Assembly: GCA_919901855.1 (NCBI GenBank)
Contig: CAKKQC010000068.1
Coordinates: 1-41,869 of the forward strand
Direction of reading: 5' to 3'
DNA length: 41,869 nucleotides
Origin: a bacterium
Lineage (GTDB): Bacteria > Oederibacteriota > CAKKQC01
Position numbers and translations under genes: made by a program. The notes under the pieces are model-generated. The model saw only the letters and a list, made by a program, of their open reading frames with translations. It had not been told where the DNA came from and did not search any database. Shown here piece by piece: positions 18,128 to 27,249 of this stretch. The first letter of the stretch is position 1. Each line of letters opens with the position of its first letter.

Positions 18128-19927
18128 ATGGCCGTCGCCGCCGGGGCCATGCTCGGCCGCTACAAGCTGTTGACTGAACTGGGATCGGGGTCCTTCGGAA
18201 GCGTATGGCTGGGCGAGGACACGTGGCTTAACAAGAAGGTCGCGCTCAAGATCCCGCACAACCAGAAGACCGATGTCGCTAAACTGCTGGCGGAGCCGAA
18301 ACTCCTCGCTGCCCTGGAGCACCCCAACATCGTTCGCCTGCTCACCGTGGAGCGCGTCGACGACGTCATGTTCATGGTGATGGAGTTCGTCGAGGGGCGA
18401 AGCCTCCGCGACCGGCTCTCGAAGGGTACGATGCCGATCCCGGAGGCGGTCGAGATCACGCGCGCGATCCTCCAGGCGCTCGCGCACGCCCACGCAAAGG
18501 GGGTAGTGCACCGGGACCTGAAACCGGCCAATATCCTGCTCACGGTCCAGGGCGAGGTCAAGATCACGGACTTCGGAACGGCGCACGCCCTCCACGGCGG
18601 GGAGGAGACCGTGGCGGCAGGCACGCTCTTCTACATGCCGAAGGAACAGCTTCTGGGGCGCGCGCTACCGGCATCCGACCTTTACGCCGTGGGCGTGATC
18701 CTCTACGAGATGCTGGCCGGGAAGCTTCCCTTCTTCGACGAGACAGGCGCGCGGGTCATCCAGAAGATCCTGTCGAGCGAGGAGGCGGCGGATGTTCGGG
18801 AGCTGAACCCGGCCGTGCCGCCCGAGCTGGCCTCCATCGTGCGTCGCTCTCTCGACCGCGATCTGAAGACGCGCTATGTCCGGGCGGAGGATTTCATGGA
18901 GGCCCTCGATGCCTGGAAGGGGGGGCGGACGATCCCGGTGGCTGCGCCCTCGCCTCCGCCCCCCCTGCCGGCTTACGAGCAGTTCGCGCATAAGGTGCCG
19001 CGACTCGCGGAATCGCTGGGGCGTTCGCATGAGTTCGGCTATACAGGGGCGTGGGGCCGGCGCGGCAAGGGGGCCGGCGAGTTCCTGCTGCCCGTGGGGC
19101 TCGCGGCCGGCGTGGACGGACAGATCTTCGTGACCGACGCTATCCGGTGCCAGGTGCAGGTGTTCCACCGCGACGGGAAGGTGGGCGCCCGCCTGGGCGG
19201 GGAGGGCACCGTGCTCGACTCGGGGCTCGTCTTCCACAACCCGACGGCCATCGCCGCGAGCCAGGCCGGGCACCTCTTCGTGTGCGACACCAAGAACTGC
19301 CGGGTCGTGATCTTCGACACCGCCGGAGAGGTCGTGGCGCGCTTCGGACGTCCGCTGGTGGTCATCGGACTCCACGAGGAGCCGGGCGTAGTGGGGTTCA
19401 ACAATCCGCGGGGGCTGGCGTTCGACGAGTCGGAGGGACTGCTCTACGTGGCGGACACCGGCAACAACCGGATCAAGCTCTTCAGCGCGGAAGGGACGCC
19501 GATCCAGACGGTGGGGGGCCGCGGGGACCGGCCGGGCGAGTTCGATGCCCCGATCGGACTGGCCATCGGGCCGAACGGGCGGCTGTACGTCGCGGACAGC
19601 CAGAATTGCCGGATCCAGGTGTTCGACCGGGGGTTCAGGTTCGTCGAAAGCTGGGGCCGGCGGGGGACCGGGACAGGCGATTTCTCGCATCCGCCGATCC
19701 ACGTTTCGCTGACCGTTAACGGCGAGGCGGTCGTGTGCGACGATACGGATCAGATGAAGCTGTTCAGCGCGTCCGGGGAGTTCATCGGGACAGTCGCGGC
19801 CCCGCGGAGTGCCGTCCCGACGCCGAAATACTACTCCGCGCTATTCGCCGAGGGCGAGAGCCTGCTGGCCGTGGACGAGAATGGGTGCCAGTTGCACCGG
19901 TTCGTCCTGAAGGAGAAGCCGTCATGA
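18128..19927 (+). CDS. Serine/threonine protein kinase with C-terminal NHL beta-propeller
   Basis: A 599-residue Hanks-type kinase. The glycine loop GSGSFGSV is at 19-26, the catalytic Lys at 41, HRDLKPAN at 128-135, and DFG at 148-150; all key residues are present, so it should be active. A Pro-rich linker near 280-295 leads to about six NHL repeats (for example LYVADTGNNRIKLF and LYVADSQNCRIQVFD), which form a propeller for protein or ligand binding. No transmembrane helix separates the two, unlike PknD-type receptor kinases, so it looks cytoplasmic. It overlaps the FHA gene by ATGA, and FHA domains bind phosphothreonine, so the two are likely partners. Confidence 0.9.
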   Translation: MAVAAGAMLGRYKLLTELGSGSFGSVWLGEDTWLNKKVALKIPHNQKTDVAKLLAEPKLLAALEHPNIVRLLTVERVDDVMFMVMEFVEGRSLRDRLSKGTMPIPEAVEITRAILQALAHAHAKGVVHRDLKPANILLTVQGEVKITDFGTAHALHGGEETVAAGTLFYMPKEQLLGRALPASDLYAVGVILYEMLAGKLPFFDETGARVIQKILSSEEAADVRELNPAVPPELASIVRRSLDRDLKTRYVRAEDFMEALDAWKGGRTIPVAAPSPPPPLPAYEQFAHKVPRLAESLGRSHEFGYTGAWGRRGKGAGEFLLPVGLAAGVDGQIFVTDAIRCQVQVFHRDGKVGARLGGEGTVLDSGLVFHNPTAIAASQAGHLFVCDTKNCRVVIFDTAGEVVARFGRPLVVIGLHEEPGVVGFNNPRGLAFDESEGLLYVADTGNNRIKLFSAEGTPIQTVGGRGDRPGEFDAPIGLAIGPNGRLYVADSQNCRIQVFDRGFRFVESWGRRGTGTGDFSHPPIHVSLTVNGEAVVCDDTDQMKLFSASGEFIGTVAAPRSAVPTPKYYSALFAEGESLLAVDENGCQLHRFVLKEKPS

Positions 19928-21423
19928 GCGCGGAACTGGAACTGAAGGTGATCCGCGAGGGCGGGCTGGGCGAGGTGGTGGCGGTGGGTCGCGAGCCGTT
20001 CACGATCGGCCGGTCGGGCGCCGACCTTATCGTGGACGACGTCGCCGTATCGCGCCGGCACTGCCAGCTCCTGCGGCAGGGCGAGGCCTGGATCGTCCGG
20101 GACCTCAAGAGTTCGAACGGGACGTTCGTGAACGGGGACAAGGTCGTGGAGCGCCCGCTGCGGGAGGGTGACCGGGTCAAGGTCGGGAAGACCGAGATCG
20201 TGATCCATCTTCGGGAGGCGGCGACCCCGGGGGCAGGCCGGGGCGGTGCGGCCGGCGGCGGTCGCGCCGAAGCGGCGACGCCGGATGACACCGCGATCTG
20301 GAGCCTGATGGAACTGTCGGCGGGCGCCTCGGAGGTGAAGAACTGGTACAAGGCCTACCTGGAGATGGCCATGCGGCGGCTTCAGGGGGAGCGGGGGTGC
20401 CTCGTGGTGCAGGATCCCGTGACCGGCGTGGGCGTCCCCGTGGCGTCGGTCGCCATGGAGTACGTGGAGACGGGGCTGGAAGGGCGGGTGCCCTTCTCGC
20501 GATCCATCGTCGAACAGGCGATCCTCGAGCGGCGCGTGGTCATGACGTCGGACGCCGACGAGGATCCCCGGTTCAAGGAAGCCGGGAGCGTCGCCCAGTA
20601 CGGCATTCGCGCGGTCCTGTGCGCGCCGGCCCGGTGGCACGGCATGCCGGTCGGCGCCCTCTACGTCGAACGGCTGATCGGCAAAGCCCTGTTCAACGAG
20701 GAGAACACGCTGCAGGCCCAGGACCTCGCGGACATGTTCGGAGTGGCGGAGATGGCGTGGCGCGGGCACCTGATGTCCAAACGGGAAGCCTGGGAACGGG
20801 ACAGCCTGGGTCGCACGTTTCCCCATTCGACGGTGAACGCGCTGGTCGCCAAGGGCGGGGCGGCCGCCGTCAGGCGCGAGATCCGGGATGTCTGCGCCAT
20901 GACCCTCTACCTCTCCAAGTTGGACGGGGTGCTGAGTGGCGTGCACGAGGAAGCCTGGCGCCTGCTCAGCCAGCTCTACGGCCACTTCTCCGAGGTCGTG
21001 CTCCAGCACGGCGGGGCGGTTCTCGACGGCGGTTACGCGCAGTTCGGGTCGGTCGACGAGGCGGAATCGGATTTCCACATCGAGGCCGTCCGGGCCGGGG
21101 TCGAGATCCAGAAGCTGGCGCGCCCCCTCGTGAAGCGCTTTGCGCGCGACTACAAGCTCAGCCTCGCGGTCGGAGTGGGACTGGCGACGGGGCCCGCGCT
21201 GGTGGGGTATTTCGGCGCGGGGCCGCGGATCGACTTCCTCGGGCTGGGCGAGGTCGAGCCCGTCTCGCGGGGGCTCGCCTTCCAGGCGGAGGATGGGGAG
21301 GTCCTGATCGAGGCCAACACCTACGCCAAGGTCCGCCTCCACGTCAACACGCACCGGCTGGCCCCGGAGTCCCTGACGGGGGTCGAGCAACAGGTGCAGG
21401 TCTACCGGGTCGTCCCCCTCTAG
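19924..21423 (+). CDS. FHA-GAF-adenylate cyclase-like (degenerate) signalling protein
   Basis: A 499-residue protein. The FHA domain (about 1-100) has FTIGRSGADL, VSRRHC and SSNGTFVNG, the phosphothreonine-binding loops. A Gly/Ala linker leads to a GAF domain (about 135-285). The last 180 residues resemble a class III nucleotidyl cyclase: LDGGYAQFG matches the second metal-Asp motif and SLAVGVGLATGPALVGYFG matches the core strand-turn. The first metal-Asp motif (usually F-x-D-I-x-G-F-T) reads MTLYLSKLDGV, and the usual D-Y-x-G-x-x-V-N-x-A-A-R stretch is not kept. It is probably a non-catalytic sensor or scaffold. It is coupled to the kinase upstream. Confidence 0.8.
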   Translation: MSAELELKVIREGGLGEVVAVGREPFTIGRSGADLIVDDVAVSRRHCQLLRQGEAWIVRDLKSSNGTFVNGDKVVERPLREGDRVKVGKTEIVIHLREAATPGAGRGGAAGGGRAEAATPDDTAIWSLMELSAGASEVKNWYKAYLEMAMRRLQGERGCLVVQDPVTGVGVPVASVAMEYVETGLEGRVPFSRSIVEQAILERRVVMTSDADEDPRFKEAGSVAQYGIRAVLCAPARWHGMPVGALYVERLIGKALFNEENTLQAQDLADMFGVAEMAWRGHLMSKREAWERDSLGRTFPHSTVNALVAKGGAAAVRREIRDVCAMTLYLSKLDGVLSGVHEEAWRLLSQLYGHFSEVVLQHGGAVLDGGYAQFGSVDEAESDFHIEAVRAGVEIQKLARPLVKRFARDYKLSLAVGVGLATGPALVGYFGAGPRIDFLGLGEVEPVSRGLAFQAEDGEVLIEANTYAKVRLHVNTHRLAPESLTGVEQQVQVYRVVPL

Positions 21424-21498: not shown

Positions 21499-21528
21499 TT
21501 GACAAAGGTCAAACGGTCTTGATATACC
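21499..21528 (+). promoter_or_regulatory. Strong promoter with overlapping inverted repeat, micropeptide unit
   Basis: TTGACA (21499-21504) and TATACC (21523-21528) are 18 bp apart with TGA before the -10. A perfect inverted repeat, TTTGAC-AAAG-GTCAAA (21498-21513), covers the -35 box and is a good candidate operator. The predicted start is near 21535. Just inside the leader is a start-stop pair, ATGTAA (21539-21544). Confidence 0.7.
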
Positions 21529-21579
21529 CAGATTACGTATGTAAGCCTGACGGTTCCACCCAGGGGGTGAGATTCCACG

Positions 21580-21633
21580 ATGGCGAAGAAGAAGAAGGGG
21601 AAGGACAAGGAGAAGGACAAGAAGAAGAAGTGA
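21580..21633 (+). CDS. 17-residue lysine-rich micropeptide
   Basis: The frame ATG...TGA encodes MAKKKKGKDKEKDKKKK: 11 Lys, 3 acidic residues, no hydrophobic core. AGGGGGTGAG eight bases before the ATG is a strong Shine-Dalgarno. The frame is bracketed by a strong promoter (21499-21528) and an 11-bp terminator hairpin (21653-21680), so it forms its own transcription unit between the FHA gene and ftsK. The all-AAG Lys runs avoid AAA slippage. I know no named family. It could bind nucleic acid or the ribosome, act as a leader peptide sensing lysine supply for ftsK beyond the terminator, or be noise in a regulatory RNA. Confidence 0.55.
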   Translation: MAKKKKGKDKEKDKKKK

Positions 21634-21652
21634 CCAGACCAATGGTAGGCGT

Positions 21653-21690
21653 GAACGGCACCGAAAGTCCGGTGCCGTTCGCGTTTTCCT
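21653..21690 (+). terminator. Rho-independent terminator (or attenuator) before ftsK
   Basis: GAACGGCACCG (21653-21663), loop AAAGTC, CGGTGCCGTTC (21670-21680): a perfect 11-bp stem followed by GCGTTTTCCT. ftsK starts 20 bp further on, so read-through would be needed to express ftsK from the micropeptide promoter. Confidence 0.85.
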
Positions 21691-21709: not shown

Positions 21710-24007
21710 GTGAACGCCCCTCCGGGTTCGCGCCTCAAGCACGTCCTCGAGGCGCTGGGCCTCTGGCTTGCATCCGCCCTCGTGTTTCTTTCCCTCGTCG
21801 CGCGCGAGCGCAGCGGCGCCGCGGGTTTCTGGCTCGGGAACCACCTCGCGGATCTCTTCGGAGCCTGCGCGGTGGCCCTGCCGATCCTGCTCGCGACGGC
21901 GGGCGTCTGGGTGTTCCGGGCGGAGGCGATCCGGGAGCACGCTGCGGCTCTCGGCGGGCTCGCGCTGTTCACCGGCGGAGTGGCGACGCTCCTCGGGGAC
22001 CTGCCGGATCTGTGGGGCGAGCGGCTGGCGGGGGGGGTGGGTGTCTGGTGCGCGACGACAGCCACGGACCTCGTCGGTCTGCCCGGGCTCCTGCTGACGT
22101 CGGCGTGCGCCATCGCGGCGGGCGGATGGCTCGGGCGTCACGAACCCGTCGTGCACGCCACGTTCGGCGCGTGCCGCTGGACCGGAGCGGCTCTCTGGCG
22201 CGCAACCGCGGCGGCAGCGCGGGGCGTGAAGGGATGGATCGCCGGCCAGCGGCTGACCCGGCGCACGGTCCAGGCCACGTCCTCGGGTGTGCTGGTGACG
22301 ATGGCGCCGCCCGTCCGGCCGGTTCCGCCTCCACCCGCGGTGGCGGACGACCGGGTCCCCGAGCCGTCTTTCGCGGACGTGGTGCGGGAGCTTGCCGACG
22401 ACGAGGCCTCGGCGGACGCCACGGCCGATGCGGCCGGGGCGTCCACCCCGTCCGCCGCGGACGGCGAGGACCCGGCGACGCCCGCGCGCCCGAAGCGGCG
22501 GCGCAAGGCGGCAACGCGCTGGACCCTGCCCTCGCAGTCCCTGCTGTCCGCGGACACCAACGTGGCCAGTGTGGCGGCCCTCCAGGGATTCATCCAGGAG
22601 CAGATCCGGATCCTCGACGCGACGCTCGCGGCCTTCAAGGTCGAAGGCAAGATCGTCAGTGTCACGCCCGGGGCCCGCGTGATCCTGTTCGAGTGGGCTC
22701 CCGCCCCGGGCGTCAAGGCGAACCGGCTGGAGAGCCTGCAGGACGATCTCACGCTGGCCCTGAAGGCCGAGCGCGTGCGGGTCGTGGTGCCGCTGCCCGG
22801 CAAGGGTACGGTCGGCATCGAAATCCCGCATCCGGCGCCCGCGGGCGTAACATTGGGCGGGATCATGGCCGCGCACGCGATCCCGCAGACGGGATCGTCG
22901 CCGAATCCTTCGGCTTCGGCGGGCCGCGACGCGGGAGACCTGGCCCTCTACCTCGGGCGGGCCCTGACCGGGGAGCCGATGGTGTCGGATCTCGCCCAGA
23001 TGCCGCACCTGCTCATCGCCGGCACCACGGGGTCCGGCAAGAGCGTGTGCATCCATACGGCGCTTCTCTCGCTCATGATGACCCGGAGTCCCGACGAGCT
23101 TCGGCTCGTGCTCATCGATCCGAAACGCGTGGAGCTGATCGCCTACCGGGAGGCGCCGCACCTCCTCTCCGAGGTGATCACGGATTCCAAGATGGCCGTC
23201 ATGCGCCTGCGCTGGTTGGGGCTTGTCATGGAGTCCCGGTACGAGCTCCTGGCGCGGCACGGGTGCCGCGACCTTCACGTCTTCAACCGCATGGTGGCGG
23301 AGGAAGGTCTTCCCGAGGAATCCAACAACGAGGCGGCCGTGCTCAGTCCTTCGGGCCTCCCCTGGATCGTCGTCGCCATCGACGAGCTGGCGGATCTCAT
23401 GGTGGCGCGCGCGAGAGAGGTCGAGGACGCGCTCCAACGCCTCGCCCAGATGGCCCGGGGAGTGGGCATCCATCTGATCGTGGCGACCCAGCGCCCGTCG
23501 GTCGACGTCCTGACGGGCGTGATCAAGGCGAATCTGCCCTCCCGCATCTCCTTTCAGGTCGCGACGCGCGTGGACTCCCGTACGATCCTGGACAGCGGGG
23601 GGGCCGAACAGCTCCTGGGCCGGGGCGACATGCTCTACGCCCCCGCTGGCCTGCCGGCGGCGATCCGGGGCCAGGGCGCCTTCGTGTCGCCCGCGGAGGT
23701 GAAGGCCGTACTCGGGCACTGGACGGCGCAGGGGGATCCGGACTTCGTGGCGGTGGCCGACGTCGAAGGGCCGGGCGGCGATCGCGGGGAGGAGGCGGGG
23801 GGCGACGATCCGCTATACGCGGAGGCCGTCGAGCTCGTGATCAAGTCGGGGGAGGCCTCGGTCTCCCAGCTTCAGCGCAGGCTCGGCATCGGATTCGCCC
23901 GGGCCGGGCGGCTCATCGACCTCATGGAGCGTCGCGGCGTCGTCGGACCGAAGCAGGGCTCCAAGACGCGCGAAATCCTGGCCCGGCGTCCGGGGGATGA
24001 CGAGTGA
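21710..24007 (+). CDS. ftsK: DNA translocase FtsK/SpoIIIE
   Basis: An ATP-driven DNA pump that clears chromosome from the division septum. The 765-residue protein has N-terminal membrane helices (about 10-150), a Pro/Ala linker to about 265, the alpha domain, then the RecA-like motor with Walker A GTTGSGKS (438-445) and Walker B IVVAIDELADLM. The C-terminal winged-helix gamma domain (from about 700, LYAEAVELVIKSGEASVSQLQRR) reads KOPS-type sequences. The GTG start lies 20 bp after a terminator. Residues about 390-404 (IPQTGSSPNPSASAG) are encoded by repeat copy C and lie just before the motor, where relatives have a short linker. Confidence 0.95.
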   Translation: MNAPPGSRLKHVLEALGLWLASALVFLSLVARERSGAAGFWLGNHLADLFGACAVALPILLATAGVWVFRAEAIREHAAALGGLALFTGGVATLLGDLPDLWGERLAGGVGVWCATTATDLVGLPGLLLTSACAIAAGGWLGRHEPVVHATFGACRWTGAALWRATAAAARGVKGWIAGQRLTRRTVQATSSGVLVTMAPPVRPVPPPPAVADDRVPEPSFADVVRELADDEASADATADAAGASTPSAADGEDPATPARPKRRRKAATRWTLPSQSLLSADTNVASVAALQGFIQEQIRILDATLAAFKVEGKIVSVTPGARVILFEWAPAPGVKANRLESLQDDLTLALKAERVRVVVPLPGKGTVGIEIPHPAPAGVTLGGIMAAHAIPQTGSSPNPSASAGRDAGDLALYLGRALTGEPMVSDLAQMPHLLIAGTTGSGKSVCIHTALLSLMMTRSPDELRLVLIDPKRVELIAYREAPHLLSEVITDSKMAVMRLRWLGLVMESRYELLARHGCRDLHVFNRMVAEEGLPEESNNEAAVLSPSGLPWIVVAIDELADLMVARAREVEDALQRLAQMARGVGIHLIVATQRPSVDVLTGVIKANLPSRISFQVATRVDSRTILDSGGAEQLLGRGDMLYAPAGLPAAIRGQGAFVSPAEVKAVLGHWTAQGDPDFVAVADVEGPGGDRGEEAGGDDPLYAEAVELVIKSGEASVSQLQRRLGIGFARAGRLIDLMERRGVVGPKQGSKTREILARRPGDDE
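22878..22921 (+). repeat. Two-hairpin palindromic repeat, copy C (44 bp), inside ftsK
   Basis: CGATCCCG, loop CAGA, CGGGATCG (perfect 8-bp stem), one T, then CGCCGAATCC, loop TTC, GGCTTCGGCG (one mismatch). Same length and order as copy A. It is read in frame through ftsK as a polar Ser/Pro/Ala-rich linker. Confidence 0.8.
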
Positions 24008-26893: not shown

Positions 26894-27249
26894 GGGGGCG
26901 AAAAGGTCTCGACGGGGGCGCTGAACCCGTGTGGGGCAAGCCGAGGTCCGTTCCACCTCGTAAAACAGAGCGGAAACAAACAACTAGCTGAACCACAGCT
27001 GGCTTTCGCGGCGGCTTGACCGCTGCGCGCTCGTCCGCCCTCGCCTAGAGGGCGGGGATCGAGTGTCATAACCTAGGCTAGGCCCGGGCGAGTGCTCCTC
27101 GCGTCCGGGATGAACTTCCAAAACGGAGCTAGCGACCTGTCCTCCTGCCCGGGGGATCAGACGGGGGGCGAATCACCAATCTCGGGCTACGCTTGTAGAT
27201 CCGCCGGGGGACGTACTCTCGGACACCGGTTCGATTCCGGTCGCCTCCA
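26894..27249 (+). ncRNA. ssrA: tmRNA (transfer-messenger RNA)
   Basis: This RNA rescues stalled ribosomes and tags the nascent protein for proteolysis. The 5' end GGGGGCG pairs with CGCCTCC at the 3' end, with discriminator A and no encoded CCA. GGTCTCGACGGGGG near the 5' end and GACACCGGTTCGATTCCGGTC near the 3' end are the hallmark tRNA-like parts. The tag frame probably resumes at GGA (26972) and ends at TGA (27017-27019), giving GNKQLAEPQLAFAAA. The end is AFAAA rather than the usual ALAA. The long GC-rich middle would hold the pseudoknots. Confidence 0.95.

Follow-up and report, generated by a model that had tools for sequence, protein, structure and literature searches.

AlgP peptides carrying KPAA repeats bind DNA, and AlgP itself associates with polyphosphate granules (PMC9239181). 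Among very small reading frames, the attenuator leaders TrpL and HisL combine a tiny ORF, holding a run of codons for one amino acid, with a hairpin behind it, an arrangement that recurs in the lysine-rich unit described here. Frames of such a size do enter some catalogues. In particular, the GMSC smORF catalogue holds predicted ORFs from 30 nt upwards, and a high smORF density has been noted for Methylomirabilota, the main text of that paper making no mention of lysine (PMC11364881); given the 30-nt floor, lysine micro-ORFs may be listed there. In the open-access literature that we searched, no description of this gene class was found. The unit analyzed below, which lies in a window of 41,869 nucleotides (the whole stretch of DNA under study), very probably belongs to a real class of genes that are too short for annotation.

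Layout of the lysine-rich micro-gene

Between an FHA-GAF gene (19735-21423 in the ORF list, Pfam FHA and GAF, its true start probably near 19924) and ftsK (21710-24007, Pfam FtsK_SpoIIIE, FtsK_alpha and FtsK_gamma), all on the forward strand, lies a complete small gene whose product is a lysine-rich peptide of 17 residues. Its -35 element, TTGACA (21499-21504), matches the consensus exactly and is followed, after an 18-nt spacer, by a weak -10 element, TATACC (21523-21528). The Shine-Dalgarno sequence (SD), GGGGGTGAG (21563-21571), stands 8 nt before the ATG at 21580, from which the micro-ORF MAKKKKGKDKEKDKKKK runs for 17 codons to the stop TGA at 21631-21633 (21580-21633 with the stop included); 11 of the 17 residues are lysine and 3 are acidic. 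Since an in-frame TGA directly precedes the ATG, the frame is not extendable. Beginning 20 nt after the lysine codon run, there follows a GC-rich, terminator-like hairpin, GAACGGCACCG-AAAGTC-CGGTGCCGTTC and then GCGTTTTCC (21653-21689), whose stem (21653-21680) has 11 perfect base pairs, or 17 if wobble pairs are counted. The promoter, strong SD, lysine frame and hairpin claimed by an earlier note on this DNA are thus all in place, with only the -10 element and the T-tract being weak. Namely, the -10 element matches 4 of the 6 consensus positions and lacks the final T, while only four Ts stand 3' of the hairpin, and for these reasons a consensus promoter and terminator scan of the window reported neither signal at the micro-gene.

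With an anti-SD duplex energy of -13.7 kcal/mol, the SD is stronger than those of the 26 window genes tested (the best of which reaches -12.6) and beats 99.8% of random 19-mers taken from the window. The RNA fold of the unit has a z-score of -3.4, and the minimum-energy fold of the window, to which the examination was confined, showed no conspicuous competing structure in which the ORF takes part. Rfam 15 covariance models gave no match at gathering score at the unit, the one match seen being insignificant (E 0.83). The sequence ATGGCNAARAARAAR has a single occurrence in the 4.68-Mb genome and none in the reversed control.

Two further observations concern the surroundings of the unit. The ftsK gene starts with the GTG at 21710, which has no clear SD (SD energy +0.7) and is situated about 20 nt past the hairpin; ftsK may depend on read-through, or its start may be misplaced. 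Further along the window, a tmRNA gene (26894-27249, forward strand) has a predicted tag, EPQLAFAAA, which is short and lacks the usual ALAA ending.

Conservation in the phylum and occurrence elsewhere

The survey of the window's phylum, an uncultured one, covered 45 genomes, for which we inspected the ftsK matches together with about 5 kb upstream. As a loose pattern search yields many chance matches in the AT-rich genomes, loci were counted only if they had an SD, a hairpin and a corresponding neighbourhood. A lysine-rich micro-ORF with a strong SD (-10.7 or stronger in every case) occupies the equivalent locus in 18 of the 45 genomes, which belong to families f1, f2, f6, f8, f10, f13 and f14; families f3, f7 and f12 have other gene neighbourhoods, and the unit is absent at this locus. 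The usual gene order is phosphohexomutase, micro-ORF and ftsK, with f8 showing M16 peptidase, micro-ORF, RNase J and ftsK, and f2 showing phosphohexomutase, M16 peptidase and micro-ORF up to the contig end. TTGACA is found upstream at corresponding positions in most orthologs (its last base differs in G013, G017 and G002), and the -10 element reads TATACT in several AT-rich ones. What is more, comparable units exist at other loci in three more genomes of the phylum (G033, G012 and G005), while a second copy is present in each of G002 and G017.

The encoded peptides are between 10 and about 44 residues long, as exemplified by MAKKKAAKKKKK in f10, MACKKKAKKKKK in f13, MAKKKKAKKKK in f14, MAAKKKAAKKKAKKK in f6 and MATKKKVVKKATKKAAKKTAKKKK in f8, and among the orthologs at the equivalent locus, which have 11 to over 30 residues, length differs by whole codons. 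Substitutions spare the lysine positions almost without exception and fall at the spacer residues, which differ among members (A, V, T, G, D/E, with G, D and E used in f1), and no conserved arginine, glycine or aromatic positions are found among the member peptides. Of 20 independent codon differences within families, 14 are synonymous, against an expectation of 22% for unconstrained sequence (P about 6e-6). Here it should be noted that, although the loci were found by their lysine-richness, this test uses the substitutions inside the loci and not their discovery. The hairpin is conserved as well: an alignment of 17 of the 18 orthologs, anchored on the AAC...GTT base that they share, covers 11 stem positions. 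All of these are paired in every sequence, even though most of them vary, with compensatory changes, as in the stems AACAACGTAG, AACGGCACCG and AACATAAAAA. T-runs follow the hairpin in the AT-rich families. In f1, the T-tract after the hairpin is short, which makes it possible that transcription reads through into ftsK, and hardly any space is left for ftsK to have a promoter of its own.

The single other genome of the same family available for comparison, G001, has its unit directly upstream of ftsK, with the peptide frame MAKKKGKDKDKKKK, the SD context GGGGGTGAGAATCCA, TTGACA 75 nt upstream of the ATG, and the hairpin GCAAACGGCACCGG...CCGGTGCCGTTTGC. Between the window and G001, two codon differences are synonymous and none nonsynonymous, all indels are in frame, and the -35 element, SD, frame and hairpin are kept, while the remaining UTR is poorly alignable. 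The earlier proposal of a self-contained unit for a lysine-rich peptide is in this way borne out, the SD, frame and hairpin being kept in 18 genomes of the phylum. In particular, the two checks that had been suggested, conservation of the frame upstream of ftsK and at synonymous sites, both speak for the frame, and the damaging case, that of promoter and hairpin kept with the lysine frame broken, was not seen in G001.

Several neighbouring observations in the phylum deserve mention. Longer lysine-repeat ORFs with a strong SD and a hairpin, one of 44 aa (L252 near 2738, G017) and one of 35 aa (L243 near 3614, G005), are apparently expanded relatives of the micro-ORF, and such longer paralogs have KKKVA or KKKA repeats resembling H1-type tails. 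In G037 (L249 near 2315), a 54-aa ORF starts with a lysine-rich N-terminus, MAAKKKTKKTVKSNKQKKK, as in the micro-ORFs, and continues with a cysteine-rich domain. Finally, the 5' UTRs of f8 and f2 (L047, L048, L052, L059 and L248) contain a possible hairpin just 3' of the -10 element, with differing sequence and similar pairing, which weakly suggests that the 5' UTR folds next to the -10 element in some families.

Outside the phylum, a strict pattern finds such units in 53 of 95 genomes of Methylomirabilota (the phylum of G064), seeds included, while the reversed pattern gives no matches in the same 95 genomes. At least 11 Methylomirabilota genomes have two copies in tandem, 85 to 100 nt apart, and the 28 loci that we read have SD energies of -9 or stronger throughout, with a median of -15.5. 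Three other groups have far lower rates, of about 1%, with matches in 2 of the 185 genomes in the class of G068, in a single one of 119 (the seed itself) in the phylum of G073, and in one of 100 in the order of G066. When GTDB contigs were scanned with a pattern, matches appeared in many phyla, with at least 38 in-frame lysine-rich frames, a minority of which have a strong SD energy among the matches listed. Matches in viral contigs, which served as a negative control, mostly form the C-terminal ends of longer ORFs and have poor SDs (median energy -2.9), and we rejected a viral origin of the micro-ORFs on these grounds. Being so simple in sequence, the units seen in different phyla may have arisen by convergence and not from a common ancestor.

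Some features of these loci are recorded here for their own sake. In certain Methylomirabilota (L268, L271, L273 and L126), the micro-ORFs come after a small gene pair that, by its sequence motifs, resembles a nucleotidyltransferase and a HEPN protein, and behind many micro-ORFs of this phylum (L275-L292) there is a conserved GC-rich inverted repeat, GGTGGGRGGTGGCGGCCTYCCACC, with no T-run. A lysine micro-ORF adjoins lysA in two unrelated lineages (L127 84-140; L144 5385-5435; L174 4239-4289), lying about 340 nt downstream of it in two Betaproteobacteria and upstream of it in one planctomycete contig; this adjacency may be a coincidence or may reflect a link to lysine.

A proposed polycation microprotein and its alternatives

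The status of the unit as a gene has good support from the sequence comparisons, and we consider it probable that it is a small, mostly self-transcribed gene for a 17-residue disordered polycation, which would bind polyanions by charge in the manner of a minimal histone H1 tail. Its own promoter would drive a mostly separate transcript of the micro-ORF, the mRNA would be plentiful and translated with high efficiency, and through its charge the peptide would bind DNA, RNA, ribosomes or polyphosphate, with selection acting on length class and charge and not on exact residue order. Binding of nucleic acids or ribosomes, one of the roles suggested in the earlier note, is a plausible function for it. 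A product is favoured over a cis-acting leader because of the tandem copies, the variable length at constant composition, and the differing downstream genes; in particular, repeated tandem ORFs argue for the dosage of a product. That said, the family is patchy, and the f1 peptides hold acidic residues, unlike typical H1 tails, both of which count against such a polycation. It should also be noted that most of the genomes surveyed are metagenome assemblies.

A more specific proposal, namely that the peptide is a ribosome-associated microprotein sitting at a defined site, comparable to other basic proteins of the ribosome that are very small, is in our opinion unlikely. While the high basic charge, the very strong SD and the apparently constitutive unit would all suit such a role, a fixed site fits poorly with the wide variation in length and spacers, the repeat expansion and the lack of conserved arginine, glycine or aromatic residues.

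The earlier note had also suggested a lysine-sensing attenuator for ftsK. In such a leader, low charged tRNA-Lys would slow ribosomes at the lysine codons, changing the hairpin and with it the expression of the downstream gene. In its favour are the lysine codon run with a hairpin 20 nt on, the little space for an ftsK promoter in f1, the missing clear SD of ftsK and the one planctomycete contig with the unit upstream of lysA; leaders with lysine codons have, moreover, been put forward in another case (S. meliloti SEP5, PMC10117765). We nevertheless regard this as improbable. Namely, the downstream genes vary, being ftsK, RNase J (in f8) or convergent genes, with quite different neighbours in other phyla, and neither ftsK nor RNase J is a lysine gene. 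A gene of lysine metabolism stands downstream in that single lysA contig only. What is more, lysine stands at nearly every residue, far exceeding the needs of a sensor, no antiterminator was identified in the minimum-energy fold of the window, and, unlike TrpL and HisL, the near-pure lysine unit occurs in tandem copies and is kept across different loci with no consistent biosynthetic gene downstream.

Equally, we see little chance that the unit is a small regulatory or dual-function RNA with the peptide secondary. It does have its own promoter and hairpin, and some families may have a structured 5' region, but Rfam has no match in 18 such loci and the constrained part is the amino-acid frame. 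The suggestion that such an RNA carries its frame by chance is not supported, as between the window and G001 the lysine frame outlasts the UTR sequence. As for a low-complexity frame arising purely by chance, the sequence is short and simple, and AAR tracts are so common in AT-rich genomes that the phylum pattern controls are not empty there, but this is already contradicted by the conserved locus, SD and hairpin, by the synonymous substitutions, and by the zero control matches in the GC-rich Methylomirabilota.

Returning to a charge-binding product, one can tentatively extend it further: near-pure polylysine micro-genes, widespread and unannotated, could supply a genetically encoded equivalent of polyamines, adjusted through peptide length and copy number and neutralising the polyanions of the nucleoid, the ribosome or polyphosphate in several uncultured phyla. 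We rejected the idea that the peptide replaces HU, which is present in 43 of the 44 phylum genomes; with HU nearly universal, the peptide would supplement it and not substitute for it. If the product is indeed an encoded polycation, it would rank with the simplest known nucleic-acid-binding proteins, and the minimal requirements of nucleoid or RNA condensation would become directly testable. In Methylomirabilota, where copies stand in tandem behind near-perfect SDs, a test of gene dosage is in principle within reach. More generally, since annotation pipelines commonly drop ORFs this short, apparently strongly expressed micro-genes would go unseen across tens of phyla-level genome sets.

Relation to histone H1-like proteins

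How does the micro-ORF compare with the lysine-rich DNA-binding proteins already described? The view that its product resembles no family holds at the level of the family libraries, the longer members matching the HC2 and H1-like models far below cut-off. Namely, in Pfam and NCBIfam searches, which have a 20-residue minimum that the 17-aa window peptide falls below, only the 44-aa paralog matches the HC2 profile, weakly, at 8.7 bits against a cut-off of 40, and it reaches 7.3 bits against a cut-off of 80 for the Burkholderia H1-like profile. Consequently, we do not file the micro-ORF as a member of HC2 or of the H1-like proteins. The scale differs too: H1-like systems are long proteins or domains (AlgP has 352 aa), while here the whole product has 10 to about 44 residues and is usually free of proline. 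Lysine-rich low complexity with Ala, Pro, Val or Thr spacers is seen in most members, the f1 peptides having G, D and E as spacers. In their lysine-rich, repeat-like and disordered composition, the peptides resemble HC2, the C-terminal KPAA domain of AlgP and the Burkholderia H1-like proteins.
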